Below are positions 1-64,000 of a stretch of 64,000 nucleotides of DNA, in pieces (the stretch's first letter is position 1; each line of letters begins with the position of its first letter). This stretch comes from Thermococcus barophilus MP (GTDB lineage: Archaea > Methanobacteriota_B > Thermococci > Thermococcales > Thermococcaceae). The position numbers and the translations under genes were made by a program. Location: NCBI RefSeq assembly GCF_000151105.2, contig NC_014804.1, positions 1,302,001 through 1,366,000 on the forward strand, in the 5' to 3' direction. The notes beneath the pieces were generated by a model that searched no databases, was not told the origin of the DNA, and saw only the letters and a program-made list of their open reading frames with translations.

Positions 1-24
1 TTTTACGTGATGCTGTTTCTGGAT

Positions 25-585
25 TCAATGCTTGGCTAATCCAAGCTTTTTTGCCAGTTCCTCAATTTCTTTTCTGTAATCATCAATGTGATTGTCGTTT
101 ACTATCATGTAATCTGCAAGGGCTATAACGTTCCCGATGCCGAATTTAAGCTCCTTCCAGTCCCTCGCTTCGAAGTCTGCCCAGGTTTTTGGGTCATCGC
201 TCCTGCCTCTCTTCTTTAATCGCTCAAATCTCTTTTTTGGAGATGAATGGACAGCTATTATCACAATCTCCTGATCTGGAAAAGCATCTTTGAACGTCTG
301 GATTTCATCCAAAGAACGGACACCATCAATAATCACTGCCTTGTGCTTCTTTAAGAGCTCTTTAACCCTTGGAACCGTCAGCTTTGCGACAGCATTATCT
401 CCCAGCTCTTGCCTCAGCTGAATGCTGATTTTATTCATTCCATCTGGAGTCCTTGGAATTCCTCTCTTGTCTGCCTCTTCCCTCACAATATCTCCCATTG
501 AAACGTGAGGAACGCCATATTTTGAGAAAATCCTCACAACTTCACCTTTACCAGAACCGGGCATGCCTACCACACAGATTATCAT
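25..585 (-). CDS. UPF0200 family P-loop nucleotide kinase-like protein
   Basis: A 186-residue cytosolic protein with an N-terminal Walker A loop (GMPGSGKGE, residues 7-15) and the overall plan of small nucleoside-monophosphate or dephospho-CoA kinases, with a lid-like Arg/Lys-rich stretch (KKRFERLKKRGRSDD) at about residues 118-132. It matches what I know of the archaeal UPF0200 family, whose substrate is not settled. The ATG is preceded by GAGGATGG at good spacing. It lies 45 bp downstream of the Hel308 gene on the same strand and could be co-transcribed with it. The kinase fold is well supported; the substrate is not known. Confidence 0.85.
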   Translation of the reverse strand: MIICVVGMPGSGKGEVVRIFSKYGVPHVSMGDIVREEADKRGIPRTPDGMNKISIQLRQELGDNAVAKLTVPRVKELLKKHKAVIIDGVRSLDEIQTFKDAFPDQEIVIIAVHSSPKKRFERLKKRGRSDDPKTWADFEARDWKELKFGIGNVIALADYMIVNDNHIDDYRKEIEELAKKLGLAKH

Positions 586-629
586 TGCCCATCCTCAGGT
601 AAATGTGGAGGGTTTAAAAGGTTAACTAA

Positions 630-2843
630 TCACTTCAAAAAGTAGTCTAAAGTTCCCTTCTTTGGCTTGGGTTTCTCCTTAGGCTTATCCTCTGGCTTGT
701 CAGGATCTTTGATATTTTTCAACAATGGAAGCTCAACTCCAAAATGCCTGTAGATTCTCTCCAGAACTTTAACACCAATACCTTCAACGGCTAAAAGCTC
801 ACTCGGCTTAGCCTTTACAATGTCATTAACGTTTTTAAAGCCCGCATTGTACAAAGCCCTTGCCCTCCTCCTTCCAATCATTGGAAGCTCCACCAATTCT
901 AACAGCTCCTCTCTAACGCCATGCTTAAGCCTCAGATGGAGCCTTCTGAGGTATTTAATCGTCTCACCTCCTGCATTGAGAACCTTCGCAAGCTCAATGA
1001 GAGAATACATTAACCAGTCTGCAAGCTCAATAATCCTATACAAGTCTCCAGTATCAATCCCATAAGCCTCAATCAGCTTTGCTTCACTCACTTCATTGAT
1101 CCAGTCCAAGAGCAACTTCGCTGTCTTAACTTCACTCAAAAACTTCTGAAACTCGTAGTCCTCCCAGTAAGGAATTGAACGGTACAAGTAATCTTCCATC
1201 TCATAAGCATAATCGAGATAGCTTTCCTGTTCCTTCCTCTTTATGCTGAGCGTTCCCATGTCCGGAGTTGATGCCAAAAGCTGGAAGATGCCGAGAGGAT
1301 TTGGATTTTCCTCTATCTGAGGCAGAGCATCTTTGAACTTTTTAGCTGTAAGAGGGTCAAGATAGAGCTGGGAAGTTCTTATACCAAAGGGCAACGCTAT
1401 AAAGCTGTCATTTAGGTCAATATCTATGAACTCGTTCTCAAGGAGGAAGTAGACTATGCTCTTCGCTTTGCCTTCAAGGATTTCCAAGTCTTTTCTCTGA
1501 TGATAATAGAAGGTCTTCTCCAAAAACCCTATCAACTCGCGGAAGCTTTCAACTCCAAAGTTTGTAATTAATGCTAAAACTTGACTCCTAAATGCAGCAT
1601 CGTTGGAGAGCATGGAGAACAGCTTTTCGGGCTTTCCAAAGATATACTTCTCCATGAGTTCTTCTGGCTTTTCTGTTTTTGCAACAATAATAGCTTCGCC
1701 TTCTTTGTCGTATTTAGGCCTTCCAGCTCTCCCTATCATCTGCTGGATTTCAAGAACAGGGATATCAGACCACCCAAAGGTTGAGTACCTCTTTGTATCG
1801 CGGATTATCACTCTAAAGGACGGTAAATTCACGCCCATAGCCAATGTCGGCGTCGCAGTTAAGACTTTTATCAATCCTTCCCTAAATGCATCCTCAATCA
1901 AAGTTCTTTCTGCTCTTCCTAATCCAGCATGATGGAAGGCAGCACCGTTAACTAAAACCTCTTTAAGCTTATCATTGGTTGGATTGCTTTCCAATGACTC
2001 AGCCAGTTCTTTTAATCTCCTTGCTTCGGGCTTTGTTAAAAGCCGCCTGACTTTCTTGCCAAGCATTCCCGCTTCTTTTTCAGCTGATCTTCTCGTGTTC
2101 ACAAAAACCAGAGCTTGTTTGCCCTTTTTGACAGCATCAATTACGAGAGAGTCCCACTGAGGTGGAAACTTATCAACTTTGCCATCTTCCCAAATCAGCT
2201 GACCATGAGCAAAGACACCTTTCCTAAGTTTCACAGGACGCCAATCACTAACCACAAGCTTTGCGTTCAGCCATTCAGCCAGCTCCTCGGCATTTCCAAC
2301 GGTTGCGCTCAATCCCAAAATCTGGGCTTTGCCAAGCATATGGGATAATATCATCTCCAAAGTTGCTCCCCTATCATAAGAGCCAAGAAGGTGAATTTCA
2401 TCTGCAACAATAAGCGTTACATCCCTAATCCATCTTGATTTATGCCTCAAAAGGGAGTCAAACTTCTCTGACGTTGCTATGATTATGTCATATTTGCCCA
2501 GCCATTCTTCACTGCTGTCATAATCTCCAGTCGTTACAGCAACCCTAACCCCCAAATCTTCCCATGTTTTAAATTCTCTGTATTTTTCTTCAGCCAGAGC
2601 CTTAAGAGGGACTAAATAAACTGCCTTTCCACCCCCAGTAAAGAGCTTGTGGAGCATCACAATTTCAGCAACGAGGGTTTTTCCGCTCGCTGTTGGAATT
2701 GCCAAAAGCAAATTCTCCCCATTGAGAACACCGCTCCTCAGAGCCTCAGCTTGAGGAGGATAAAACTCGCTAATGCCCCGCTCTTTAATCTTCCTGATTA
2801 TTCTCTCATCTACACCAAATTTTGAAAGCTCATCAACCTGCAT
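630..2843 (-). CDS. hel308: Hel308/Hjm Ski2-like DNA helicase
   Basis: An ATP-dependent 3'-5' superfamily 2 helicase that acts on forked DNA and Holliday-junction-like substrates in archaeal replication restart. Visible motifs are Walker A (AIPTASGKT, about residues 48-56 from the chosen start), the DEIH box (VADEIHLLG), motif VI (QMIGRAGRPKYD), and C-terminal helix-hairpin-helix-like sequence (VELPMIGRRRARALYNAG). The last residues (GTLDYFLK) resemble a PCNA-interacting peptide, which is inference. I chose ATG 2843 (MQVDELSKFG), the usual family N-terminus. The longer open frame to 2897 would read through the TATA element shared with the divergent gene. Confidence 0.95.
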   Translation of the reverse strand: MQVDELSKFGVDERIIRKIKERGISEFYPPQAEALRSGVLNGENLLLAIPTASGKTLVAEIVMLHKLFTGGGKAVYLVPLKALAEEKYREFKTWEDLGVRVAVTTGDYDSSEEWLGKYDIIIATSEKFDSLLRHKSRWIRDVTLIVADEIHLLGSYDRGATLEMILSHMLGKAQILGLSATVGNAEELAEWLNAKLVVSDWRPVKLRKGVFAHGQLIWEDGKVDKFPPQWDSLVIDAVKKGKQALVFVNTRRSAEKEAGMLGKKVRRLLTKPEARRLKELAESLESNPTNDKLKEVLVNGAAFHHAGLGRAERTLIEDAFREGLIKVLTATPTLAMGVNLPSFRVIIRDTKRYSTFGWSDIPVLEIQQMIGRAGRPKYDKEGEAIIVAKTEKPEELMEKYIFGKPEKLFSMLSNDAAFRSQVLALITNFGVESFRELIGFLEKTFYYHQRKDLEILEGKAKSIVYFLLENEFIDIDLNDSFIALPFGIRTSQLYLDPLTAKKFKDALPQIEENPNPLGIFQLLASTPDMGTLSIKRKEQESYLDYAYEMEDYLYRSIPYWEDYEFQKFLSEVKTAKLLLDWINEVSEAKLIEAYGIDTGDLYRIIELADWLMYSLIELAKVLNAGGETIKYLRRLHLRLKHGVREELLELVELPMIGRRRARALYNAGFKNVNDIVKAKPSELLAVEGIGVKVLERIYRHFGVELPLLKNIKDPDKPEDKPKEKPKPKKGTLDYFLK

Positions 2844-2861
2844 TGCATACCCAATAGGGGA

Positions 2862-2880
2862 AAAGCGTTTATAGGCTTTT
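2862..2880. promoter_or_regulatory. Divergent TATA region between hel308 and the next gene
   Basis: The 52-bp gap holds a CGTTTATAGGC element. On the minus strand it reads CCTATAAACG, about 25 bp upstream of the hel308 start. On the plus strand TTTATAGG lies just upstream of the ATG at 2896. The two start regions appear to share this short TATA region. Confidence 0.5.
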
Positions 2881-2895
2881 GGTTTAGTTGAAAGC

Positions 2896-3465
2896 ATGAA
2901 AGTTGAAGTACCCTATCTGGTATTTGAAGTGAATGGGGAGGAATATATGATTGATGCCCACTTTTCAAAGAAGCTTGAGCGGATTGAAAGGATCAGCGCT
3001 CTAATTCGACCAGTAGACAGAACCCTGTCAGAAACTGCAGAAGAACCTCTTCCAATACTCTTACAGAAAAATGAAATTGAGGGATTCTTAAAAAATCTGT
3101 TTGTTGAGGTTTATGAAAGCTCTGGAGAGAAGCTGAACAAACGACTAAGGCATATGAGAAAATGGAATATCCTCAGGCTCATTGGAATTCCAACTGGTTT
3201 TTCAAGGCATGTAGAGAAAGACGAACATCTTGCAAAAGAAAACAGAGAGGCTATGCTATCCTTGGCGATATTAAGAAAAATCCTTGGAGTTAAAACCCCC
3301 ACAGAACTTGATAAGATCAAGATAGTTCCAAAAGAATACCTCTACTACAGGATTGAACTCAAAAACAGAGAAATTTTCAATGAAAAAGGAGAAAAAGATG
3401 GCATATATACACAGCTCTTGGAAATTGATGGAGGTTTTAGGCATGCTCTGCTTTCTATGATTTAG
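2896..3465 (+). CDS. Hypothetical protein, unrecognised
   Basis: A 189-residue soluble protein with no signal peptide or membrane segment. It is rich in charged residues and has a basic central region (EKLNKRLRHMRKWNILRL, about residues 79-96). I do not recognise a family. Codon use and the intact frame resemble its neighbours, so it is probably a real gene. It is divergent from hel308 and its 3' end overlaps the convergent dppF gene by 11 bp. A role near Hel308 in DNA repair is only a guess from position. Confidence 0.75.
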   Translation: MKVEVPYLVFEVNGEEYMIDAHFSKKLERIERISALIRPVDRTLSETAEEPLPILLQKNEIEGFLKNLFVEVYESSGEKLNKRLRHMRKWNILRLIGIPTGFSRHVEKDEHLAKENREAMLSLAILRKILGVKTPTELDKIKIVPKEYLYYRIELKNREIFNEKGEKDGIYTQLLEIDGGFRHALLSMI

Positions 3466-27719: not shown

Positions 27720-28026
27720 GTTTTGGAGTGGTAATGGACTCTGAAAGAGTCCTTTCACAGATAGCCCTCTTAGAGGGCTTTCACCGTGTCTCCTGCTTTT
27801 GCAGGGGAAGACGCCGATAGGCGTCCTTCGAAAACTGCCCTCTTGGGCAGTTAGAGTTTGAGATACGATAACCCCAAGCCTTTGTGGTAGGGGTAATGGG
27901 CCTGAGACCGGGCCTGCGGGCTGAACCGAAGCTGGCGACAGGAGTAGGTGATGGGCCCGCAAACCGAACCGCCAATGGCGAGGGGTTAAGTCGTTGGAAC
28001 CCTCGCCCTTCAGGGCGGGGAGGAGG
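27720..28026 (+). mobile_element. Hairpin-rich IS200/IS605-type remnant with omega-RNA-like right end
   Basis: A 300-bp GC-rich block without a coding gene. Its left part carries five perfect or near-perfect hairpins: GGACTC/GAGTCC (27736), GCCCTC/GAGGGC (27764), TCCTGC/GCAGGG (27791), GACGCC/GGCGTC (27810) and AACTGCCC/GGGCAGTT (27833). Its right end reads GTCGTTGGAACCCTCGCCC then a TTCA loop and GGGCGGGGAGGAGGTCAG. That form is typical of the 3' end of tnpB elements and their omega RNAs. No tnpA or tnpB frame is present. The last bases supply the stop codon of the adjoining gene. The left boundary is a guess. Confidence 0.55.
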
Positions 28027-28965
28027 TCAGTCCTTCCCAACACCTTCTGAAGCTCTGATTCCATACTTTTTGTACAGCCTTCTTCCAACCAGATAAAGCA
28101 CTGCAAATGGAGATATTATTATCAGCAGGGCAAGAATACCCCTAATTATCATAATCAGTATTGCCACAGCTTGGTATATGGTCTTTCTAAAGTCTAAATC
28201 AATCTCGAACACAGGCTTTTCTTTGCTCTCTATTGTAATGTGATATGTTATATAATCCGTGACTTTCTCATAGTAATCCTTCTGGAGGTAGAGGTAATTC
28301 AGACGGGAGTTTATTTCAGAGATCCTGTATTCAATTCTTAAAAGATCATCGACATCTTTTGAAAGGTTGTAAAATTCCAAAAGCTTCTTTTTCTCAGCCT
28401 CAAGGCTCTCAATTTCAGCAAGAATCTGGTTGTATTTGCTTGTCACATCTTGAGTGTCCAAGCGGAGGCTTTTGACGTTGTACCTCTGCAGGAGGGTTCC
28501 GACTTTATTTTCATTTTTTGCTGTGTTCGGAACCCTAAACTCCAAGTAGTAGACAGTCCTGTCCTGCCCCCTTGTAAGACGTTCAGAAATAATATACCCA
28601 CCAAGAGAATACACCTCGGCTTTTATTTCCTCGGTTACTTTTTCTGGATTTTCATCCTGAATAATGACGTAATAGTCTTTCTTTAGTCTCTGAATTACTT
28701 CCTTAGGCTTTTCATTATTTGTAACTCCTACTGAGGCTTGGGTAGCAGTCGGCTTTGTATACGTTGGAGCATATGCCATCGTTTGTGTGGACGTAACTCT
28801 TTTAGCTTCAATATCCCAGCCTTTTTCTTCATAAAGCGGAGGCTGATACTCCGGCTCATTTCCAACCTTAAGTGAAGCCCCGCTCTGAAAAACCTTTGAG
28901 ACAACAAACCCAGCGACGATTATCACAACAACCAAGAGAACTATCCCAATATTTCTTTTATGCAT
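28027..28965 (-). CDS. DUF4349-type membrane protein with coiled coil
   Basis: A 312-residue protein with an N-terminal membrane anchor (GIVLLVVVIIVAGFVVSKVF), an extracellular alpha-beta domain (about residues 95-165), a coiled coil (ILAEIESLEAEKKKLLEFY and on) and a C-terminal membrane helix (AVAILIMIIRGILALLIIISPF) with a basic tail. This is the DUF4349 layout; its function is unknown. ATG 28965 follows GGTGAG. The TGA stop is formed by bases at the right end of the IS-like element, so the native C-terminus may have been altered. It shares an upstream palindrome with the next gene. Confidence 0.88.
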   Translation of the reverse strand: MHKRNIGIVLLVVVIIVAGFVVSKVFQSGASLKVGNEPEYQPPLYEEKGWDIEAKRVTSTQTMAYAPTYTKPTATQASVGVTNNEKPKEVIQRLKKDYYVIIQDENPEKVTEEIKAEVYSLGGYIISERLTRGQDRTVYYLEFRVPNTAKNENKVGTLLQRYNVKSLRLDTQDVTSKYNQILAEIESLEAEKKKLLEFYNLSKDVDDLLRIEYRISEINSRLNYLYLQKDYYEKVTDYITYHITIESKEKPVFEIDLDFRKTIYQAVAILIMIIRGILALLIIISPFAVLYLVGRRLYKKYGIRASEGVGKD

Positions 28966-28995: not shown

Positions 28996-29032
28996 CATTT
29001 AAGGGTTGTTAAAGCTTCAAAATGATTTGAAG
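28996..29032 (-). promoter_or_regulatory. TATA element and palindrome upstream of the DUF4349 gene
   Basis: Minus-strand TATA CCTTAAATG at about 28997-29004, with a perfect inverted repeat CTTCAAA-ATGA-TTTGAAG at 29015-29032, twelve bases further upstream. The same arms and spacing occur before the next gene (30307-30324). Confidence 0.65.
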
Positions 29033-29044
29033 TGAAGGAAAAAG

Positions 29045-30253
29045 TTAATCCTTTCTCCTGAGAGACAGAGGTAGTAAAACTCCCAGCACTACAATACCGG
29101 TACCACAAATTGCACTGCTGGTAGGGCTTTTTGGAGTTGAAGGGGATTGAGACGGTGAAGGTTTCCCAAGTTCAACTGTGCCTTTTGGCAATTGGTATGT
29201 CATTGGCTTTCCAAGGCATTTTACAAGCTTAGCATCTTTGCTTTCATAATAGGGAATCCATGCATATTTGCCATCTTTGGTTTCATACCACCCTATATGG
29301 GAGTTGTAGCCAGCATAGCCCCTCTTTGCAACTTTTACGATTTCTTCAATGTCTTCATCGCTTATCTTTAAAATTCCACTCTCTTTGAGCCATTCAATTT
29401 CAACTCTCAGCGCTTCTTTAAAGTTGAATGTGTATGGATTAACAATCCCCTCCGGCATGCTGGTAACCCGCTTTTCAAACTTTATGTTCTCTAAAACACA
29501 GCTTATTCCCAAAACTGAAAACAGTTCCTTTATCTCAGCTCTTTTTTCCTCACTTAATTCCTTCTGCCCGTAAATTGCAATGTAAACGTCCGCTTGTGGC
29601 ATCTTTATAACTTTATTTGGATCAATTCCATGCTCCTTAAGGCATTGTTCAAAAGCACCATTCGGTTTCCACGTGCACACACCGTTCACACAGCCGCAAC
29701 TTGTAAGCTTCAAACACTCATACCAGTCCCTATAAACACAAATTGAGACTACTTTTGTTGCGTTTTCTCTGGTTGTACATATCTCTCCAGAGCAACCCCC
29801 AGTGGAACAGTCAGAATCTTTTGAGCACTCTCTTCCTTTTTGAGGAGTTATTTGAACCAGAATGTTCTCTCTTCTGAAAGCATGTTTTCCTTCAACCTCC
29901 CATCCAAGCTCCTTAGCTTTCTCGATGCTGTTTTCTGGGAATATTATCGGAGTTGTGAACTTCGCAGAGAGAACAGTTGAGTTCCAGTTTTTTACTGGGA
30001 TTTCAATCCTTAAGTGGAGCCCGTTATCTTCCCAAAGTATAACAGCAACTCTTTCGTCGTAATGGGAATGGTAAATTAGTCTTCCATCTTCAATTAAGAC
30101 ATTTTCCGCATTCGTAAGGGGCTCAAGATTATATTCAATGCCTGGCTTGTTGAAATAAACCTCTACAGCCAAGTTATCAGTCGGGCTAAAGCACGCCTGA
30201 GCAAAGGGGAGCAATGCTAAGATTAAAATAAAAGCCACGGCATATCTTTTCAC
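29045..30253 (-). CDS. Exported eight-Cys-cluster protein with CGP-CTERM-like anchor
   Basis: A 402-residue secreted protein. The signal peptide (YAVAFILILALLPFAQACF) is followed by a beta-rich domain, a Cys-rich cluster (ECSKDSDCSTGGCSGEIC then SICVYRDWYECLKLTSCGC), an alpha-beta domain and a Ser/Pro/Thr linker. It ends in ICGTG plus a hydrophobic helix and RRKD, close to the Thermococcales CGP-CTERM sorting signal though with CGT instead of CGP. Function unknown; probably anchored on the cell surface. I chose GTG 30253, which follows AGGTGAG, over the GTG at 30262 that overlaps that site. Confidence 0.85.
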   Translation of the reverse strand: MKRYAVAFILILALLPFAQACFSPTDNLAVEVYFNKPGIEYNLEPLTNAENVLIEDGRLIYHSHYDERVAVILWEDNGLHLRIEIPVKNWNSTVLSAKFTTPIIFPENSIEKAKELGWEVEGKHAFRRENILVQITPQKGRECSKDSDCSTGGCSGEICTTRENATKVVSICVYRDWYECLKLTSCGCVNGVCTWKPNGAFEQCLKEHGIDPNKVIKMPQADVYIAIYGQKELSEEKRAEIKELFSVLGISCVLENIKFEKRVTSMPEGIVNPYTFNFKEALRVEIEWLKESGILKISDEDIEEIVKVAKRGYAGYNSHIGWYETKDGKYAWIPYYESKDAKLVKCLGKPMTYQLPKGTVELGKPSPSQSPSTPKSPTSSAICGTGIVVLGVLLPLSLRRKD

Positions 30254-30287
30254 AGTGCTCACCTATTTCTAACCATAACCTTCAAAG

Positions 30288-30368
30288 TATTTATCTTTGC
30301 TCATAGCTTCAAACCAGTTTGAAGTGCAAAAGCTTTAAGTCCTAAAGATCAACATCACTCGAGGTGAT
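30288..30368. promoter_or_regulatory. Divergent control region of the eight-Cys gene and enolase
   Basis: From left to right: minus-strand TATA (TATTTAT, 30288-30294); the inverted repeat CTTCAAA-CCAG-TTTGAAG (30307-30324), twelve bases upstream of it; plus-strand TATA AAAGCTTTAAG (about 30329-30339); and ATCAC-TCGAG-GTGAT (30354-30368). The last resembles the Thermococcales glycolytic motif TATCACN5GTGATA bound by Tgr/TrmBL1. It lies downstream of the enolase TATA, the position associated with repression. Its right half is also the enolase Shine-Dalgarno sequence, which weakens the case. Confidence 0.55.
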
Positions 30369-30372
30369 TAAG

Positions 30373-31665
30373 ATGGAGAACCCGTTTGAGATTACCGCAA
30401 TTGTAGCAAGAGAAATCTTGGACTCAAGAGGAAACCCAACAGTAGAAGTAGATGTCTACACTCCAGTTGCCATGGGAAGGGCTGCTGTACCAAGTGGGGC
30501 ATCAACAGGAACTCATGAAGCTTTGGAGCTTAGAGATGGTGGAAGGAGATTCCACGGAAAAGGAGTTAGGAGGGCTGTTGAGAACATCAACAAGATCATT
30601 GCCCCAGAGCTCATAGGCATGGATGTAACACTGCAGAGAGACATAGACATGCTCATGATTGAGCTTGATGGAACCGAGAATAAGTCAAACCTTGGAGCAA
30701 ACGCTATTTTGGGAGTTTCGTTAGCAGTTGCCAAGGCAGCAGCAAACACCTTAGGTTTGCCGCTTTACCAGTACATCGGTGGAACTAACGCTTATGTATT
30801 GCCAGTTCCAATGAGCAACGTCATCAACGGTGGGGTTCATGCCGGAAATGATTTGGACTTCCAGGAGTTCATGATAATGCCCGTCGGTGCTAAGAGCTTC
30901 AAAGAGGGCATTCAGATGATCAGCGAGACATACCACACGCTCAAAAAGATTCTCGTGGAGAAATACGGAAAGCTGGCAGTTAACGTTGGTGACGAAGGCG
31001 GATTTGCGCCGCCAATGAAGGAAGTTACAGAGCCACTGGAAGCTCTCGTCAGGGCAATTGAAGAGACCGGATACAAAGTTGGAGATGAAATCGCATTTGC
31101 ATTGGATGCTGCATCAAGCGAGTTCTACAACGCTGAAAAGGACAAATACATCGTTGGAGGTAAAGAATACACAAGGGATGAGCTCATTGACCTTTACAAA
31201 GAATTAGTCAGCACTTATCCAATAGTCTCAATTGAGGACCCAATGCACGAGGAAGACTTTGAGGGCTTTGCAATGGTAACAAGAGAGCTTGGAAAGAAGA
31301 TACAGATCGTTGGCGACGACATCTTTGTTACAAACGTGAAGAGGCTAAAGAAGGGCATTGAAATGGGAGCAGCAAATGCTCTGCTCTTAAAAGTCAACCA
31401 GATCGGAACCTTAAGTGAAGCAATCGATGCAGCTTACTTGGCTTTCAGAGCTGGTTACGGAGTTGTTGTCTCACACCGCTCTGGAGAGACTGAAGATGCT
31501 ACAATCGCAGACTTAGCGGTAGCAATAAACGCCGGGCAGATTAAGACAGGTGCTCCAGCAAGGAGCGACAGAAACGCAAAGTACAACCAGCTCATCAGGA
31601 TTGAGGAAGAGCTTGAGGGCATAGCATATTATCCCGGAAAGAAGTTCAGGAACCCTCTCCTATGA
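30373..31665 (+). CDS. eno: Enolase
   Basis: 2-phosphoglycerate hydratase/dehydratase of glycolysis and gluconeogenesis, about 430 residues. Intact features are [17 protein letters not shown], the [15 protein letters not shown] loop, the acid/base and Mg ligands ([43 protein letters not shown]) and the catalytic Lys in [15 protein letters not shown], then [20 protein letters not shown] 30373 follows GAGGTGAT; the GTG at 30364 lies inside that site. Confidence 0.98.
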
Positions 31666-32168: not shown

Positions 32169-32873
32169 GTTCCAATAAGACTCTAAGAGAATTGAAAGAG
32201 CTGCAACCGGTTCAGCGTAAATGCTGATGAGGAGCGTTCCAATAAGACTCTAAGAGAATTGAAAGCCGAACCCAACAGAAGCATTTGTTTTTTCATTAGA
32301 ACGTTCCAATAAGACTCTAAGAGAATTGAAAGGCAAACGTCGTTGTTGCAGGACTAATCAGCCTCTACGTTCCAATAAGACTCTAAGAGAATTGAAAGGC
32401 TTTTTCAGCTGTTCATTCTCTTGCTTCAGCTTTGCGTTCCAATAAGACTCTAAGAGAATTGAAAGAACAACATGAAGCCTGGTGAGCCGCCGAGATTCCT
32501 TGATGCAAGTTCCAATAAGACTCTAAGAGAATTGAAAGTTCACAATGAAGTAGTATGCAACGTCCGTCTCCGCAAGGTTCCAATAAGACTCTAAGAGAAT
32601 TGAAAGGCGTTTGAAACAAAATTTGCAGAATTGTTGACTGCAGTTCCAATAAGACTCTAAGAGAATTGAAAGAGCTGTCTCTATTGCCTCCTCCTCAGTC
32701 CTTGCAATCGTTCCAATAAGACTCTAAGAGAATTGAAAGTCCAGGTCGAGAAGCTCGAAGACGGCAAGATAGTCGGTTCCAATAAGACTCTAAGAGAATT
32801 GAAAGCAGTATGATGGGGGGGTTTGGAAGTGCCCGTTTTGTAAGTTCCAATAAGACTCCAAGAGAATTGAAAG
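32169..32873 (+). CRISPR. CRISPR array, 11 repeats and 10 spacers
   Basis: A 30-nt repeat beginning GTTCCAATAAGACTC and ending GAGAATTGAAAG starts at 32169, 32236, 32303, 32369, 32436, 32509, 32577, 32643, 32710, 32776 and 32844. The first ten copies are identical. The last differs by one base (CTCCA for CTCTA), marking the trailer end. Spacers are 37, 37, 36, 37, 43, 38, 36, 37, 36 and 38 nt. The repeat type is that of Thermococcales, processed by Cas6 to leave an AUUGAAAG tag. No cas genes are in this window, so the array depends on Cas proteins encoded elsewhere. Confidence 0.99.
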
Positions 32874-55985: not shown

Positions 55986-56855
55986 GTGTCATTGGAGGAA
56001 AAGCTTACTGAGGCAGTTATTGAGGCAATTCGATTAGCCGCTACAAACCTTCCTGAAGATGTCATCAACGCAATTAAGGGGGCATATGAAAGGGAAGAAA
56101 GCAGAATTGCAAAATTTAATCTTGAGAACATTCTTAAATCAATTGAAATCGGCAAAAATGAGAGAATTCCCATCTGCCAAGATACTGGAACAATAACTTT
56201 TTTCGTTGAAGCCGGGATCAAAAATCCGTATCTTAGTGAAATTGGAGAAATTCTATTGGAAGCGACAAGAAGAGCTACACAAGAAATTCCCTTAAGGCCT
56301 AATGCTGTCGATGTTCTCACGAACAAAAATTCCGGGGACAATACTGGCAGGTTCGTGCCAATAATACACTGGGAGCTTGTTGAAGGGAACAGGATAAGAA
56401 TAGCAGTCCTGCCCAAAGGTGGAGGGAGTGAGAACTGCTCAGCTTTGGCAATGCTCAACCCAATCGAAGGCTTTGAAGGCGTCAAGCGTTTTATTGTGAA
56501 AAGGGTGAGAGAATGCGGAGGTAAACCCTGTCCGCCAGTGATTCTCGGCGTGGGAATTGGGGGAAGTGCAGATTTAGCTTTAAAACTCGCCAAAAAATCA
56601 CTTTTAAGACCTCTTGGAATGAGGCATGAAAACGAAAGAATTGCTCAATTGGAGGAAGAAATTCTTGATAAAGTCAACTCACTTGGAATTGGACCAATGG
56701 GCATGGGAGGTAGAACAACGGCTTTGGATGTTAAGATAGAATACGCCCACAGACATCCTGCATCACTTCCGGTGGGATTAATAATTCAGTGCTGGGCTCA
56801 CAGAAAAGCGTTCATTGAGGTTGATGAAAAGGGAAAAGTTAAGATTTGGCAGTAA
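55986..56855 (+). CDS. Fumarate hydratase class I, alpha subunit
   Basis: A 289-residue [4Fe-4S] hydro-lyase subunit. Cluster Cys are in PICQDTGTITFF, GGGSENCSALAMLNP and ECGGKPCPPVILGVGIGG, and VDVLTNKNSGDNTGRFVP is typical. The beta subunit, normally the next gene, is absent; a regulator runs convergently instead and overlaps by 17 bp. It might be a tartrate dehydratase alpha subunit. The start is uncertain among GTG 55983, GTG 55986 and TTG 55992, all next to AGGTGGTG. Confidence 0.92.
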   Translation: MSLEEKLTEAVIEAIRLAATNLPEDVINAIKGAYEREESRIAKFNLENILKSIEIGKNERIPICQDTGTITFFVEAGIKNPYLSEIGEILLEATRRATQEIPLRPNAVDVLTNKNSGDNTGRFVPIIHWELVEGNRIRIAVLPKGGGSENCSALAMLNPIEGFEGVKRFIVKRVRECGGKPCPPVILGVGIGGSADLALKLAKKSLLRPLGMRHENERIAQLEEEILDKVNSLGIGPMGMGGRTTALDVKIEYAHRHPASLPVGLIIQCWAHRKAFIEVDEKGKVKIWQ

Positions 56856-59106
56856 TACTGGAAATATCAAAAATCCTGCTGAGTTCTTCAAGAACTACCT
56901 CATAAAGCCAGGGATAGCCTTTCAGCCTCTCCCTTCCGATGTTGATGTATTCTTTGAAGTTTCCGCCTCTGAGGTTCTCAACTGCAGCTAAAGCTATGTA
57001 CCCTGCCCATCCAAGTGGATAGCCAGTGCTCTGGGCGATTCTTATCATCTCCTCGGCATCTTTTTGAGCCATTTCAAGCTCTCCAAGGGCAATGTAGGAG
57101 AAGCACCTGTAGGCGAGAGCATCAACGGCCCTCCGATAGTTTCTGACCTTTAAAAAGTAATCCACTGCCTCTGTGGCATGTTCAACGGCCTTCTTATAGT
57201 TCTCCACAAGGTAATAAGCCTTGGAGAGCTCGGAGAGCGAGAGGTGCTCCATGAAGGACAGACTGTACGCCCTTGCGAGATCTAAAGCCTGGGAATAGTA
57301 CTTCAGGCTTTCCCTGTACCGTTCCAGCTCAATGTATATGTCCCCTATGTGGAGGAGAACGAGGCTTTCAAGCTCAGGATATGGGTTGAGCCTTTTTAAT
57401 GCCCCCAGCTCGTTGAAGGCACTTTCGAGGGCATCTTCAAGCTTTCCAAGGTAAGCGTTTAGCTTAGTGAGCTCCACAAAGTACCAGAAGTCAACCTCCG
57501 CGTCGTTCATGATTTCCCTCATCTTTTCAAGCTCTCTAAGGTATTTTTTGCTTTCATCCGATTTGTTGAGCTCTATGTACACATCTACTAAAGAGCTCAG
57601 CACATCAGCTTTATGAATCCCTTCCAGCTCATCCTTGATCTCAAGCCAGAGCTTTAATGCTTTTTCAAAGAAGCCCTTCTGGAAGTAAATGCTGGCGAGC
57701 TCCTCCTTGGCGTACGGGTTGTCTTTTATGGTGGATAAGACGTTTAAATAAGAATCGGAAAAATCCTGGACAACCCGTTTAAACCTTCTCAACCTCAGCT
57801 CAACGAGCCTTTTAATGGTCTTCTCATCCTTGAGCTTGACCGCATACCTGAAGGCCTTCAAAAAGTCCCTGGTGTTGTTCTTCTTCAGGAGAAACTTTAT
57901 GTACTTTGAGTAGAATTTAGCCTCATCAACCTCCCTAACCTCGCTTAAAAACCCCCTAATGAGGTCGTGAACGAAATAAAGGTTCCCCCTCCTCTCGATG
58001 AGTCCCTTGTTCAGGAGGGAGTACAGGACTGAAAAAACGTTCTTTCCATAGAGCTCCTTTATTTCGTCGTATTCAAGGGGTTCGTCAAAAAGTGACATAA
58101 ACTGGAGCAAAAACCGTTCATCCGTTTTCAGCTTTTCGTATATCTCATTGACGAGAAAATCGAACAGGTTTTCCCGCTCGAACTCTCTCCTTTCCACGTA
58201 TGTCTCTGAAAAAAGGTTTAAAGCGAGGGGGTGCCCGAGTGTCATCTGGTAAACCTTCACAAATTCTTCCGGGCTTATATTCACGCCTTTTGCTTCAACA
58301 AGCGAATATGCCTCTTCCAGGCTTAGACCGGATAGACGTAGGTAGAGGGCATTCAAACCGAGGTTTGGTTTCTCCCTTGAGGTCACAACCAGCTTCCCCT
58401 TATCGAGCTTCTCGGAGAGGAATGCAAGCAGGTGGAGTATCCTCTCATCCCTGCATTTGTGGAGGTCATCAATAACGATCTTTGCCGAGCTTTTCTCAAC
58501 GCCATCAAGGAGCAGCTCAAAGATGTCTCGCTCTTCCCTCCCTCCGGCTCTTAAATACTCAAGAAGGGCATCGTAGCCGAGAGAGTTAAGGAACAATCCA
58601 ACCTGCCAGGCAAAGTAGTCGAGACTGTCTCCTTCGCTCATCTGGTACCAGAATGCATCACCGAAAATCTTCGCGGCAAGAGCTGTTTTCCCAATCCCAG
58701 CTATTCCGTAGATTACTATAACGCTCTTCTCGGAGGAGGTGATTAGGTCAATTTCTTTTTCCCGCCCAACGAATATATCGACAAGAGGATGCCTGCTCTC
58801 CAATAGGGGAACCTCGTATCGGTCTCCCTTTGAAGTGCTGACGAGTATCTCCCCGGGCTCGAACCTTATCCTGATGTCTTCAACCTTGAGGGAATATACC
58901 TTGACGTTTTTCCCTCTAACCCTCATCCACCTGCCCTCGACGAGACCAGCTCTCTCCATCGCCCTTAAACGCCTTGAGACGTCTGTTTCATCCCTTCCCA
59001 GTATTCGGGCAAGCTCTCGCGGATTGAAGGAGCCAGATCTGAGGACGGAGAGTATCTCAAGGTTGGTCTCGTTGGACAGTAACTTAATTAGACTGGAGGC
59101 GTTCAC
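56839..59106 (-). CDS. STAND-type ATPase regulator with N-terminal winged helix and TPR repeats
   Basis: A 755-residue MalT-like protein. N-terminal winged helix (FNPRELARILGRDETDVSRRLRAMERAGLVEGR), a NACHT/NB-ARC-like NTPase with Walker A YGIAGIGKTALAAK and Walker B KIVIDDLHK, a winged-helix spacer and C-terminal TPR array from about residue 470 (ALKLWLEIKDEL, SLKYYSQALDLARA). The TPRs probably bind a ligand that triggers ATP-dependent oligomerisation. GTG 59106 follows AAGGTG. TATA AAATATAAAAAC lies about 40 bp upstream. GC content is higher than in most of the window. Confidence 0.92.
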   Translation of the reverse strand: MNASSLIKLLSNETNLEILSVLRSGSFNPRELARILGRDETDVSRRLRAMERAGLVEGRWMRVRGKNVKVYSLKVEDIRIRFEPGEILVSTSKGDRYEVPLLESRHPLVDIFVGREKEIDLITSSEKSVIVIYGIAGIGKTALAAKIFGDAFWYQMSEGDSLDYFAWQVGLFLNSLGYDALLEYLRAGGREERDIFELLLDGVEKSSAKIVIDDLHKCRDERILHLLAFLSEKLDKGKLVVTSREKPNLGLNALYLRLSGLSLEEAYSLVEAKGVNISPEEFVKVYQMTLGHPLALNLFSETYVERREFERENLFDFLVNEIYEKLKTDERFLLQFMSLFDEPLEYDEIKELYGKNVFSVLYSLLNKGLIERRGNLYFVHDLIRGFLSEVREVDEAKFYSKYIKFLLKKNNTRDFLKAFRYAVKLKDEKTIKRLVELRLRRFKRVVQDFSDSYLNVLSTIKDNPYAKEELASIYFQKGFFEKALKLWLEIKDELEGIHKADVLSSLVDVYIELNKSDESKKYLRELEKMREIMNDAEVDFWYFVELTKLNAYLGKLEDALESAFNELGALKRLNPYPELESLVLLHIGDIYIELERYRESLKYYSQALDLARAYSLSFMEHLSLSELSKAYYLVENYKKAVEHATEAVDYFLKVRNYRRAVDALAYRCFSYIALGELEMAQKDAEEMIRIAQSTGYPLGWAGYIALAAVENLRGGNFKEYINIGRERLKGYPWLYEVVLEELSRIFDISSITAKS

Positions 59107-59266
59107 ACCAAACACCTTACTTCTAAATTAAGTGTTCCATGTTTTTATATTTAATTCATCGCTGGCTCCAACGGTTTAACCTTTGCCGTCTACTGCGAGA
59201 AGGTATTAGTTCTCTACTAAAAACTCATCTTAGAGCGAAGCTTTCAAAAAGGTAAAAGAACGAGAC

Positions 59267-62200
59267 TCACGAAACTCCAAGGAGCTCGAGAGCTTTTTTA
59301 ATGTAGAGATATGCTTTTCTCATGTGTATTAGTGCCCTGACGTCCGCTTGTAGGAGGGATTGATAATGCCCTTCCACCCAGCAGTACTCTTTCTTCGCGA
59401 GGACAAGGAGGTCTTTTATCCTTGCGAGGGTCTCGTTGTCGAGGTTCTGGGAGGAACTGTTGTACAAGACATTGAATTCCTCAAACGCTTTCTGGTACCA
59501 CTGATAGTAGAGATACGTTAGGATTGCAAACGATACCTGGGCTGTCTCCTGATCTTCGATAGACGTTTTAATTTCCTTGATCTCAACAGTAAATTCCACC
59601 CTCGTAGAGTTAACGTTTCCAGCGGCATCATACGCGTAGACTTCTATGGCGTGGTGTCCCTCTTCAAGGGTTATTTTTGCTATGTAGTACTCGCCATCGA
59701 ACTCCATTGTAACCCAAATTGAGCCGTCAACCAATGCCATGACCTTTTCAACCACGTGATCGTCACTTGCCCTAACTTTGATTTCTGTGACGTTCTGGTA
59801 GTAAGTCGTGTTCTCCGGAAAGATTATCTCAACTTCCGGCGGCTTCGTATCAGACGACACCGTTAGGGGCAGATAGTCAACGTTGTTGTCATCTATGACG
59901 TAGGGAACGTCGCAGAAGCCGTCTAAGTTTTTGTCCTCGCAGTCCTTAAGCTCGCTCCAGTAGTTTCCGCCGAGTAAATTGCCGCCGAGGATGTTCGTGC
60001 CTCCTCTCTTCGTGACGTTCCAGTGATTGGTAACGTTGCCAAGAACCTTAACGTTCCTTGCGTTGTCGAAGTAGTTGTTGTAGATCAAGTTGAACTTGGA
60101 GTTGCTAACGTAGACTCCAAGGCTGTTGTTGATAACCAAGTTTGAAAAGATTACATTGCTTCTGCTTCCAGGTCTTAGGTAGAAGCCGACCCCTCCGGAA
60201 CTTATTGAGTTCCCCCACACGAGGTTTCCAGCCGAGCCAGTGTCGAGTTCTACTCCTGAGCCCTTGGCGTTCTCCACAGTGTTGTGCGAAATCGAGGAGT
60301 TTACGGTGTCCTTCAGGTAAACGCCGTCCCCGGTGAGGTCTTTAATGGTGTTGTATGAAACTTCAGCTCCCCGTGAGTTTCTGACGTCTACCCCCTCAGC
60401 GGTGTTCCCGGTTACGGTGTTTCCGGAAATCCTGGCATTGACTGTGTTTTCCGCGTAAATTCCCGCCAAAAGCCAGCCCTTCAGGTTGAGGTTCACCACC
60501 GTGACGTTTTCAGTGTTCTCCACCTTCACCCCGTAGAGCGCCAATTCTTTCCCGCTCAGCGTGTGGTTTTCTCCATCGAGGAGGACGTTGCTCGCGTTTA
60601 TGAGTACCGCGTATTCCATCGAGAGGTTCTCCCCGTCGGTTTCAAGCCTGTAATAGCCGGGCTCGTTAATGATTATCGGGAACTCTCCACCTATGGACTT
60701 CGGTTTGAACTTTATCAGGGGCAGGTAGTCGTAGGTGCCATAGGCTATTTGGTACGGCTCGTCCCCTACTCCGTCGAAGTTCTCATCGGTTCCATCGTAC
60801 CTCTCCCAGTAGTTGCCCCCTATCAAAGGTCCTCCGACGATGTTTCTTCCCGGCCTTACCGTTGTATTGAAGGAAACGCCACCCAGAGTGTGGGACATGT
60901 AGACGTCCCGGTAGTTGTCAAAGTAGTTGTTATAAACCGTCACTTCTTCAGATTTCTCAGCGTTTATTGTCAGGCCATAGGTGTTGTTAACCAGCCAGTT
61001 GGTGTGAACCTCTACGTTCTCCATAGTCCTTGCTCCCAGAATCAGCCCGTAGTAGTTCTCCGCAAAGAGGTTGTTCGAGATAACCCCGTTCCCCATGCCC
61101 TGGTAGGGAACCGTCACCAGGAGGCCGTACTTCGAATTTCTAACTTCGTTGCCCGTTACATTGAAGTTGCTGAGGTCATCTTTGCCCCCAATGTTTATCC
61201 CGGCCTCTTCAACGTTGTGGATAATGTTCTCCGCTATGATGACCTGCCCGTGTTTGCTCGGCGAGATGCACAGTCCCCAGGCGGCATTGCTTATCCCGTT
61301 GCCCTTTATTGTGGCTTTACCGTAGGCTTTGACGTTTATGGCTATGTAGGAATTCTCAATCTCCGAATACATTATTTCAACGTCCTGAGCAGTTACGTCA
61401 ATTCCCGTGAGCTCGTTCTCCACCTTTGCCCCCGAAATCTTCACCGAGACGGGCGAATAGAGCCTTGTGGGTTCTGCGTAGACGTCTATACCCGTCATGG
61501 AGGAGTTGCTCTCCACCTTTGAGACAACATCGACGTCGAGTAAAGTCGCGTTCGAGTACACCAGATGGAAGCCAAACGACAATAGCGGTGTGCTCTCGTT
61601 GACGATTTTTTCTGAGACGGGATCCTGGTAGGAATAATACACCCACTCCGCGCCGTGCTCCACGCGGGTGTTTTTGATTGATGCGTTCGACCTCAGGATT
61701 GCCACTCCCCAGCGTCCTTGAAAGCTTGAGTCCTCGATGGTGACCCTTGAATCTATGGCCAAAAGTGGCAGGTCTGTGAAGGCAACGTCAAGGCCTTTAA
61801 CGGTGAACGTGCTGTTAACGGCTATTACCTGACCCGCGTTGCTTATCTCCACTCCCTCTTCGTTTTCGAGGTAAACCAAGGGCCTGCCGTTAACGGTGTT
61901 GTCCTCGACCCTTATGTTCCTCACCAGCGGCACCTCTGGTATGAGAAGTCTGTCGATGAAGGTTGAACCGTAATCCCCAGTGATGGAAAGACCGTTGTTG
62001 ACGAAGGTGTTCCCCCTGACTATAACCTCCTCAACCCTGATGTTCTTTCCCGTCCTGACGGGGAGTCCAAGGATAACTCCCCCACGGGAGTTGTTTTCAA
62101 CCCTGTTGCTGGTAATTTTTACATTTTTACCGTTCCAGACGTGTATTCCCGCAAGCTCGTTTTCGAGAATCTCGTTGCTCGTTATCTCCAGTCCGGTGCC

Positions 62201-64000
62201 GTTGACCACTACCGTCGCTATCGGCGAGTATCCTACGTTTATCCCGGGGAGCCAGGGGTAAGGACGCTCAAAGACTGGCACTGCATAGAAGTAGTAACCG
62301 AAGACCGGGTCGTAATAGTATTCGCCGCTCCATCCGAGGAGCCTTTTTCTCATTACCGCGTCATGAACCCTATTGTCTGCTATTCTGCCGTTTTCGATGT
62401 TGAGGGCAACAATTCCTCCCCCAGAGGAAAACGCCTCATTTTCCCTGATATCAAGTCCCTCAACCCCACTGGCAAGCACCGGAATCCCAAAGTTCTCTGA
62501 GAACCTGTTGCCCTCAATTAGGACATCCTTCGAACCTCTAACCCCAATAGAGGCGTAATAGTTTCTCTCGAAGTTGCTCTCCACTATCCTGACTCCACTT
62601 GAATCCTGGACGTAGATGCCTGCTATGCCCTCAAGCTCTTTAGCATTTACCGCCCTTATCTCAACGTCCGACGAACCTGACACAATAACAGGCGTTGCCT
62701 TGTAACTTTGAAACTCCAGCCCCTCGATCCTAACGTTGCTTGAGTTAACCACAAACACCTGGCCTGCATTGTTTATGAGGACGTTTTTCGCATTCTTCAC
62801 CATCAGCACAGGCCTTCCGTTCACGGTCGTTTCCTTTACCTCAAAATCCGTAAAGTAGCCGTCAGTGCCAATCGTGGAGATGTAATCGTTAACGAGAACG
62901 TTTTTCTCCAGCTCATCCCTGGAGCGGAGGTAGATGCCTATTCCGGCGTTATCGTGGATGTAGTTTTCCCTGATGGTGTTGTTCTCACCTTCGATGTCTA
63001 TTAAAGCCCCGATATAGCCGAGGGGGGCGTGGTTTCTGGCCATGTCAGCTATATACCCGCAGGAGTCGCAGAAGGGGAGATACTCCAGAGTGAGTGGTCC
63101 GATACCGTTTCCAAAGAGCTCGTTGTTCTCTATCAATGAGTTGGAGACGTTGTGGAGGTAAAGCCCTATTCCATAGAGGGAGAAGCTGGGAATTGCATAG
63201 GCTCCTACTTCCTTTCCGTTTGGCAGGGTGTAGGACACTTCCTCATAGGTATCCCTGTTGTCCGCTATTAAGTTGCCCGAAATGGTCAGGTTTTCCGCCG
63301 TTGATATTGTTATCCCCCATGTGTTGTTGGTTATCTCGTTCCCTGAAATTGTTACGTTTGAGGTAATGCCGATCCAGTATTCAGAGAGGCAATTCACATC
63401 ACAGTGGAGTATTCCATTGTCTTCGTCTTCAATATTAATAACCTTGGATAGGTTCTTTTCGCCGCGGATTATTACTCCAAACCTGTTGTTCCTCACCGAG
63501 TTGTTTATGAACCCGACCCTCTTTGATGCTACTATAGTCACTCCCTGCGTGTTGTTCACTATTTCGTTGTTTACGAGCGTTGGTCCTGTGGCTATCGGAA
63601 GCTTATCGAAATATCCCACTTCCCTAACTGCCGGAACAGAAGTTAATATATAGATGCCCAGGTATGACCTTCTCACCGTGTTATTGGCTATGAGAAACGG
63701 GACCGTAACATTGCCCCCTGCCGCCGTACCTGAGATATGTACACTTATGATGTTGTCCTCGAAGGTGTTCTCTACGAGACCTGAGAACGTCGGCAGGACA
63801 TCCCCTAAATACCCGAAGACGTCCCCTTCCAATATCCCTGGGTCCGATACAACCGGCCCAGCTATTGCGATGCCAACTATCGTGTTTCTTATGGTGTTGT
63901 TATACAGGAGGAAGTTTGTCTTCTTCTCGGCGTCTATTTTAAACTGAACATAGTGGTTGGAATACACTATCTCCAAACTTGGATTCATTATGTCCTCAAC
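59267..64000 (-). CDS. Giant beta-helix (NosD-like) surface protein, 5' end outside window
   Basis: At least 1,577 residues. The reading frame stays open to the window edge, so the N-terminus and any signal peptide lie beyond. Dozens of parallel beta-helix repeats of the N.I..N.I type (ITSNRVENNSRGGVILG) fill most of it. Two NosD-like modules end with GGNYWERYDGTDENFDGVGDEPY and GGNYWSELKDCEDKNLDGFCDVPY. An Ig-like domain (PPEVEIIFPENTTYYQNV) and a helical C-terminal domain follow. Probably extracellular, binding or modifying polysaccharide. Lines counted by hand have about 53-60% GC. Confidence 0.93.
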   Translation of the reverse strand, partial: VEDIMNPSLEIVYSNHYVQFKIDAEKKTNFLLYNNTIRNTIVGIAIAGPVVSDPGILEGDVFGYLGDVLPTFSGLVENTFEDNIISVHISGTAAGGNVTVPFLIANNTVRRSYLGIYILTSVPAVREVGYFDKLPIATGPTLVNNEIVNNTQGVTIVASKRVGFINNSVRNNRFGVIIRGEKNLSKVINIEDEDNGILHCDVNCLSEYWIGITSNVTISGNEITNNTWGITISTAENLTISGNLIADNRDTYEEVSYTLPNGKEVGAYAIPSFSLYGIGLYLHNVSNSLIENNELFGNGIGPLTLEYLPFCDSCGYIADMARNHAPLGYIGALIDIEGENNTIRENYIHDNAGIGIYLRSRDELEKNVLVNDYISTIGTDGYFTDFEVKETTVNGRPVLMVKNAKNVLINNAGQVFVVNSSNVRIEGLEFQSYKATPVIVSGSSDVEIRAVNAKELEGIAGIYVQDSSGVRIVESNFERNYYASIGVRGSKDVLIEGNRFSENFGIPVLASGVEGLDIRENEAFSSGGGIVALNIENGRIADNRVHDAVMRKRLLGWSGEYYYDPVFGYYFYAVPVFERPYPWLPGINVGYSPIATVVVNGTGLEITSNEILENELAGIHVWNGKNVKITSNRVENNSRGGVILGLPVRTGKNIRVEEVIVRGNTFVNNGLSITGDYGSTFIDRLLIPEVPLVRNIRVEDNTVNGRPLVYLENEEGVEISNAGQVIAVNSTFTVKGLDVAFTDLPLLAIDSRVTIEDSSFQGRWGVAILRSNASIKNTRVEHGAEWVYYSYQDPVSEKIVNESTPLLSFGFHLVYSNATLLDVDVVSKVESNSSMTGIDVYAEPTRLYSPVSVKISGAKVENELTGIDVTAQDVEIMYSEIENSYIAINVKAYGKATIKGNGISNAAWGLCISPSKHGQVIIAENIIHNVEEAGINIGGKDDLSNFNVTGNEVRNSKYGLLVTVPYQGMGNGVISNNLFAENYYGLILGARTMENVEVHTNWLVNNTYGLTINAEKSEEVTVYNNYFDNYRDVYMSHTLGGVSFNTTVRPGRNIVGGPLIGGNYWERYDGTDENFDGVGDEPYQIAYGTYDYLPLIKFKPKSIGGEFPIIINEPGYYRLETDGENLSMEYAVLINASNVLLDGENHTLSGKELALYGVKVENTENVTVVNLNLKGWLLAGIYAENTVNARISGNTVTGNTAEGVDVRNSRGAEVSYNTIKDLTGDGVYLKDTVNSSISHNTVENAKGSGVELDTGSAGNLVWGNSISSGGVGFYLRPGSRSNVIFSNLVINNSLGVYVSNSKFNLIYNNYFDNARNVKVLGNVTNHWNVTKRGGTNILGGNLLGGNYWSELKDCEDKNLDGFCDVPYVIDDNNVDYLPLTVSSDTKPPEVEIIFPENTTYYQNVTEIKVRASDDHVVEKVMALVDGSIWVTMEFDGEYYIAKITLEEGHHAIEVYAYDAAGNVNSTRVEFTVEIKEIKTSIEDQETAQVSFAILTYLYYQWYQKAFEEFNVLYNSSSQNLDNETLARIKDLLVLAKKEYCWVEGHYQSLLQADVRALIHMRKAYLYIKKALELLGVS

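Follow-up and report, generated by a model that had tools for sequence, protein, structure and literature searches.

A conserved palindrome ahead of cell-envelope genes in Thermococcaceae, probably the operator of a membrane-embedded ArsR-type activator

Described regulators related to the locus

Several described archaeal regulators share features with a palindrome that we followed up in Thermococcus barophilus MP, within a window of 64,000 nucleotides (the whole stretch of DNA that was analysed, G000:C1:1302001-1366000). The part of PMC6396743 drawn on here presents ArnR and ArnR1 of Sulfolobus acidocaldarius as membrane-bound one-component proteins with an N-terminal HTH and two membrane segments, an architecture likewise predicted for our candidate; both activate surface structures from an inverted-repeat site, and here too there is an inverted repeat and the targets belong to the cell surface. 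The transmembrane transcription regulators covered by the relevant sections of PMC10269533 combine a DNA-binding domain and a membrane segment in one protein, as the candidate is predicted to do.

In promoter layout, the likeness is to two regulators of Pyrococcus furiosus. According to the passages of PMC5937170 used here, the palindrome of TFB-RF1 likewise keeps a constant distance to a weak BRE immediately downstream of it, and the protein, which is conserved across Thermococci, activates by TFB recruitment; its site is TCTGAANTTCAGA and its targets are two ABC-type operons, so that the palindrome here differs. EarA, in the portion of PMC10665913 consulted, also has a fixed-distance site upstream of a weak BRE and a surface target, the archaellum, but its site is A(C/G)(C/G)TACA(T/C) and serves one operon, again a different sequence. 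Meanwhile, TGM, bound by TrmBL1, is also a lineage-wide palindrome ahead of many promoters in the excerpt of PMC10667668 that concerns it; it reads TATCAC-N5-GTGATA and controls sugar metabolism genes, and here too the sequence is another one.

A first-pass annotation of this stretch had connected CTTCAAA-N4-TTTGAAG with no named Thermococcales regulator. This agrees with our comparison, since the TGM/TrmB, TFB-RF1 and EarA sites, as given in those parts of the sources, all differ from it. Neither the site nor the regulator proposed below was described in the open-access literature that we searched, subscription papers lying outside that scope. We consider it likely that the palindrome serves as operator for a cell-envelope regulon conserved in Thermococcaceae and that it is read by a membrane-embedded, self-regulated activator of the ArsR type that would recruit TFB.

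Two palindromes, their conservation and the genes behind them

The two copies of the palindrome have perfect seven-base arms around N4 and share the flanks AG...TG, and each is followed after exactly 12 bases by a minus-strand TATA-like box (Table 1), in agreement with the first-pass annotation. The names that it gave to the genes behind them were borne out by matches to PF14257 (DUF4349) and TIGR04292 (heavy_Cys_CGP). In the same part of the window, a GC-rich stretch (27866-28043) matches the Rfam families HgcC at 38.6 bits (gathering 50) and sot0042 at 34.7 bits (gathering 88), both below cut-off; it resembles a relic of an IS200/IS605-type element without its protein.

Table 1. Operators, promoter elements and genes of the proposed regulon in Thermococcus barophilus MP (positions in the window unless a contig is given; R1 is the site profile described in the text)
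Feature	Position	Strand	Evidence or remark
Operator 1, CTTCAAATCATTTTGAAG, DUF4349 gene	29015-29032	minus	exact palindrome; R1 E 1.9e-6
TATA-like box TTAAATG, 12 bases past operator 1	28996-29002	minus	sequence; aligned sites share the spacing
DUF4349 gene with N-terminal membrane segment; predicted target	28027-28965	minus	PF14257 E 1.8e-25; hydrophobic N-terminus
Operator 2, CTTCAAACTGGTTTGAAG, Cys-rich CGP-CTERM gene	30307-30324	minus	exact palindrome; R1 E 3.8e-7
TATA-like box ATAAATA, 12 bases past operator 2	30288-30294	minus	sequence; relatives share the spacing
CGP-CTERM-anchored Cys-rich gene (heavy_Cys_CGP); predicted target	29045-30262	minus	TIGR04292 E 1.7e-179
Enolase gene, divergent neighbour of operator 2	30373-31665	plus	TIGR01060
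Candidate regulator gene of the window genome	G000:C1:875841-876491, outside the window	minus	directly after alba
Own-genome predicted targets 1-4			Cys-rich gene; DUF4349; PEGA protein; 435-aa protein with weak DUF4139 match
Own-genome predicted targets 5-8			170-aa and 210-aa exported proteins; 617-aa lipoprotein; 116-aa exported protein

These two are the only exact copies of CTTCAAA-N4-TTTGAAG in the whole window, where between 0.0005 (base composition) and 0.003 (first-order Markov) would be expected. When two mismatches are tolerated, the window contains 2 copies against a chance mean of 1.07, which is not above chance, so that the signal is carried by the exact form and its context. In the 2.06-Mb genome (2,064,237 bases), TTCAAAN4TTTGAA occurs four times, with 0.3 to 1.4 copies expected, and its reversed control does not occur (0 copies). 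Three of the four are promoter sites and one (L004) sits within an ORF, for which reason we rejected a reading of all four as operators.

Conservation was assessed in a family sample of 94 Thermococcaceae genomes, which includes a genus here called g3. The Cys-rich gene was matched in 70 of them, and the 200 bases upstream were compared in 69, G084 being omitted because its gene start lies off the contig. Outside g3, 57 of 60 genomes carry a site with no more than 2 mismatches in 12 positions; in g3 none of the 9 does. Mononucleotide shuffles reach the same level in about 1% of cases. Nearly all promoters with a site have a TATA-like box at about equal distance, and one of the 57 sites (G082) lies at -191, off the usual place. 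The three misses are G085, where a site with three mismatches lies in the usual position, and G075 and G078, whose sites have a 5-base spacer. The DUF4349 gene was matched in 10 genomes at 11 loci, of which 10 carry a site with no more than 2 mismatches in 14 positions.

Counted without reference to genes, TTCAAAN4TTTGAA is present 121 times in the 94 genomes versus 37 times for the reversed control, with 23 versus 2 in the window's genus and 7 versus 5 in g3. Past these unselected matches, TATA words cluster 10-15 bases after the 16-mer, the exception being 6 counts at 6. We then described palindrome, spacer and TATA by a 41-position profile (R1) built from 36 training sites of several gene families, which match it by construction, and used the same sequences reversed as a mirrored control (R2). 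Across the 94 genomes, R1 gave 717 matches at E<=1, a number of matches and not of sites, since the profile scores both strands of a palindrome; its best E was below 1e-3 in 79 genomes. R2 gave 91 matches, with a best E of 0.0054 and none below 1e-3. R1 also reached classes beyond its training set, namely a DUF4139-like protein, more lipoproteins, small exported proteins and the gene of the candidate regulator. Among the matches listed down to E 2.4e-4, 60 regions were examined in addition to the loci already given; G085:C6:169218 and G031:C1:234388 are among those left unexamined.

The first-pass annotation had suggested a genome-wide scan and phylogenetic footprinting as checks, and had named as the refuting outcome a motif frequent in coding DNA and unconserved at these promoters. 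The scan recovered the fixed site-to-TATA spacing at many further envelope genes with no mirrored match below 1e-3, footprinting found the palindrome kept at both promoters in relatives, and the refuting outcome was not obtained. Its proposal of one regulator acting on both promoters is supported by the conserved sites, by the common TATA spacing at other envelope genes and by the empty mirrored control.

The gene content behind the sites points to the cell envelope. The window genome has eight distinct R1 sites at E<0.05, every one upstream of a gene for an exported protein, and its remaining R1 matches either repeat these palindromes on the other strand or have an E of at least 0.5. The predicted regulon of this genome comprises at least eight genes. 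An N-terminal hydrophobic segment is present in 8 of 8 of these targets versus 11 of the 63 genes of the window, two of the 11 being targets themselves. Further targets in relatives, among the matches examined, are a serpin (PF00079), an S_layer_C protein (PF05124) and Big_14 Ig-like proteins. Across genomes, after regulator genes and ORFs shorter than 60 aa were dropped, the segment was found in 68 of 74 target proteins, the 68 including many orthologues. The ORF chosen was not the true gene in two of the misses (L112, L172), the protein was truncated or its start missed in three (L118, L132, L174), and L170, an ABC ATPase, is a plainly non-exported target on inspection. In the genome behind L118 (G029, positions 1-3016 of the locus), which has a broken candidate regulator, the serpin frame past the site is short, at 153 aa versus about 420 in L124.

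Operator 2 also lies upstream of enolase, as the first-pass annotation had stated. Its position is as described, but a role of enolase as a target is not sustained. The enolase promoter is without a site in 10 of 12 examined genomes that lack the Cys-rich gene, and also in G002 and G076, both of the examined genomes in which the Cys-rich gene is located elsewhere; G043 and G047 have a one-mismatch site at the enolase promoter, yet no Cys-rich gene was found there. Since the enolase promoters of these genomes are mostly siteless, we rejected enolase as a target for most genomes, G043 and G047 excepted, and judging from sequence it is probably a bystander of operator 2. A protein bound to the palindrome could still touch the enolase promoter here. 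Just downstream of enolase there is a CRISPR array (32169-32873) in which a 30-base repeat (Rfam CRISPR-DR6) is present 11 times.

A candidate regulator adjoining alba

In many Thermococcus genomes, a site also precedes a gene, located directly after alba, whose product of about 220 aa has an HTH_20/HTH_5 domain followed by two hydrophobic stretches. The Pfam matches to HTH_20 (2.9e-11) and HTH_5 (2.8e-9) are above cut-off, and HAMP is not among the matches up to E 0.1 (24 families shown). The AlphaFold model has a confident winged helix, a helix at 99-133, a disordered region at 137-186 and a helix at 192-214 (mean pLDDT 75). Foldseek matched it to the ArsR-type folds PH1932, HlyU, SmtB and CzrA, and Foldseek and HMMER together returned ArsR-type and other winged-helix proteins. 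Hydropathy gave at least one membrane segment in 6 of 6 candidates examined and two or more in 4 of 6, the simple scan missing TM1 in 2 of the 6. By these predictions, the candidate combines the DNA-binding domain and the membrane segment by which transmembrane transcription regulators are recognised. Its recognition helix is nearly invariant across genomes, and its loop is variable and often Ser/Thr-rich. Of two conjectured locus tags, TK0559 gave no hit, and PF1882 proved to be an AAA ATPase and was discarded. The window itself encodes a 758-aa protein (56839-59115) whose matches to HTH_20, an NB-ARC-like ATPase and TPR give it the architecture of a STAND-type regulator, and a 1573-aa open frame at 59267-63988.

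The candidate's own promoter carries a site (at most 3 of 14 mismatches) 66-70 bases ahead of the start at all 29 loci from L195 to L223, and the same holds for 14 of 17 additional intact candidate genes (L225-L241); of the other three, L227 and L231 have degenerate promoters and L236 has no site. In the window genome, the corresponding sequence reads TTCCAG-N5-TTTGAAG, with one extra base, and is absent from the R1 matches. A site in its promoter is compatible also with the candidate being a mere target. A scan of genome contigs returned 20 loci, all of them MAGs titled Thermococcus, Thermococcaceae, Thermococcales or Thermococci, and for that reason says little about wider spread.

Candidate and sites are jointly absent from one genus. 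The candidate (E<1e-25) was found in every genus but g3, and at the eight alba loci found in the nine g3 genomes it is absent in 8 of 8, a convergent gene follows and no remnant was seen. Of the 74 genomes that have the candidate, 69 also have strong sites, versus 10 of the 20 that lack it, giving Fisher values of 3e-5 overall and 5e-4 for complete genomes, both of which overstate independence because the loss in g3 is one event. The correspondence has exceptions in both directions. Sites are present and no candidate was found in G066 and several incomplete genomes, and five genomes with the candidate (G024, G028, G044, G050, G061) have a best R1 E of just 0.0017-0.046. Two g3 genomes (G007, G011) keep one site, ahead of a decayed gene. 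A 117-aa FRMGG exported gene with an intact operator is decayed in L009 (G007) and L024 (G031), each at 1-3016, and intact in L033 (G052).

Strong sites also persist in three genomes whose candidate genes are broken (G020, G029, G041). Together with the degenerate candidate promoter of the window genome, this favours a reading in which the operator is real but recognised by some other, soluble transcription factor, with the membrane HTH protein as a regulated gene or a modulator. We regard this as unlikely, given that the candidate is the sole HTH gene noticed among the recurrent targets, that its recognition helix is so little changed, and that the one genus without sites is precisely the one that lacks it.

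Proposed mechanism and comparison with known systems

In the mechanism that we favour, the reader would be a one-component regulator, probably binding the palindrome as a dimer. The candidate would place its N-terminal winged helix in the cytoplasm, followed by two membrane helices that enclose an outside loop of roughly 40-70 residues, and would end in a basic C-terminus. From a position 12 bases ahead of the TATA, immediately before a poor BRE, it would bring in TFB and so activate the genes for the Cys-rich CGP-CTERM, DUF4349, PEGA, DUF4139-like and lipoprotein products, along with its own gene. In relatives, the serpin, S-layer and Ig-like genes would be activated likewise. The signal may be the condition of the envelope, with a possible connection to sugar supply.

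The direction of control is suggested by the promoter layout. Judged by the consensus quoted in the part of PMC5937170 used here, the BRE is poor, with A in 5, 6 and 0 of the 36 sites at columns 28-30. A site upstream of such a BRE at fixed spacing, as for TFB-RF1 and EarA, argues for an activator working by TFB recruitment, and by analogy the placement matches that of archaeal activators that recruit TFB or TBP. The candidate might instead be the regulator but repress the envelope genes. Many ArsR-type proteins are repressors, and sites beside a broken gene could be harmless once a repressor is lost. This reading appears to us more doubtful still than that of a soluble reader, because the sites precede BRE and TATA by a constant distance and the BRE is poor, the TFB-RF1/EarA activator layout, while archaeal repressors usually cover the TATA, BRE or start site according to the relevant passages of PMC5937170.

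A link to sugar comes from the excerpt of PMC10667668 on secreted proteins, in which three T. barophilus proteins were seen solely in the wild type without sugar, among them TERMP_01543 (45.2 kDa, eight-cysteine-cluster) and TERMP_01984 (lipoprotein, 68.1 kDa). Two predicted targets have computed masses of 45.22 and 68.14 kDa, in agreement with these. The first is the Cys-rich CGP-CTERM protein when started from its second GTG, and its gene is probably TERMP_01543; both assignments were made by mass, description and rough gene order. In the same excerpt, the effect of sugar is linked to TrmBL4, a protein distinct from the candidate, and TERMP_01543 and TERMP_01984 are lost from the supernatant both when sugar is present and when trmBL4 is deleted. 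One might hence suppose that the palindrome is recognised by TrmBL4 or TrmBL1, sugar regulators of the TrmB type. This is very improbable: TrmBL4 is present in 24 of the 94 genomes, four of them in g3, and cannot account for a site present in most of the family, so that its distribution led us to reject it as the reader. Moreover, no TrmBL4 motif is given for either gene in that portion of PMC10667668, and TGM/TrmB sites differ. That the palindromes arose by chance, or act through RNA or DNA structure with no regulator involved, is barely credible, since the two-mismatch window count at chance level and the one genomic copy in four within a gene are set against conservation at orthologous promoters, fixed spacing and an empty mirrored control, and a site upstream of the TATA lies outside the transcript of the envelope gene.

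The preferred reading, an activator recruiting TFB, can be taken one step further. A single membrane-embedded ArsR-type activator may run an envelope-homeostasis regulon in Thermococcaceae, sensing the outside by its variable loop and recognising a dedicated palindrome at the S-layer, serpin, Cys-rich, PEGA, DUF4349 and lipoprotein promoters and at that of its own gene, as a euryarchaeal counterpart of bacterial envelope-stress systems contained in one protein, a proposal on which we are evenly divided.

These findings bear on the surveillance of the archaeal cell envelope, a process about which little is known, and yield a defined operator with a limited set of targets and a single candidate regulator that can be tested. 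The genus g3 amounts to a natural loss experiment, and genetics in this group are workable, including gene deletion in T. barophilus, as reported in the section of PMC10667668 on this organism. If the proposal is true, DUF4349, eight-Cys CGP-CTERM, PEGA and Ig-like exported proteins fall under one control circuit, and a euryarchaeal example joins the few studied archaeal membrane-bound regulators.

Among these, ArnR combines HAMP and sensor domains with two C-terminal membrane segments in the part of PMC6396743 drawn on, whereas the candidate is predicted to have a loop between its segments and no such domain. The ArnR site given there, TCGAC-N5-GTCGA, is unlike CTTCAAA-N4-TTTGAAG, and the regulon also differs. 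The portion of PMC10269533 used here is a census by domain and does not link any Thermococcales member to a site or a regulon. Membrane-bound regulators are already known, and the candidate from Thermococcaceae differs from them in its proposed site, its layout and its regulon.
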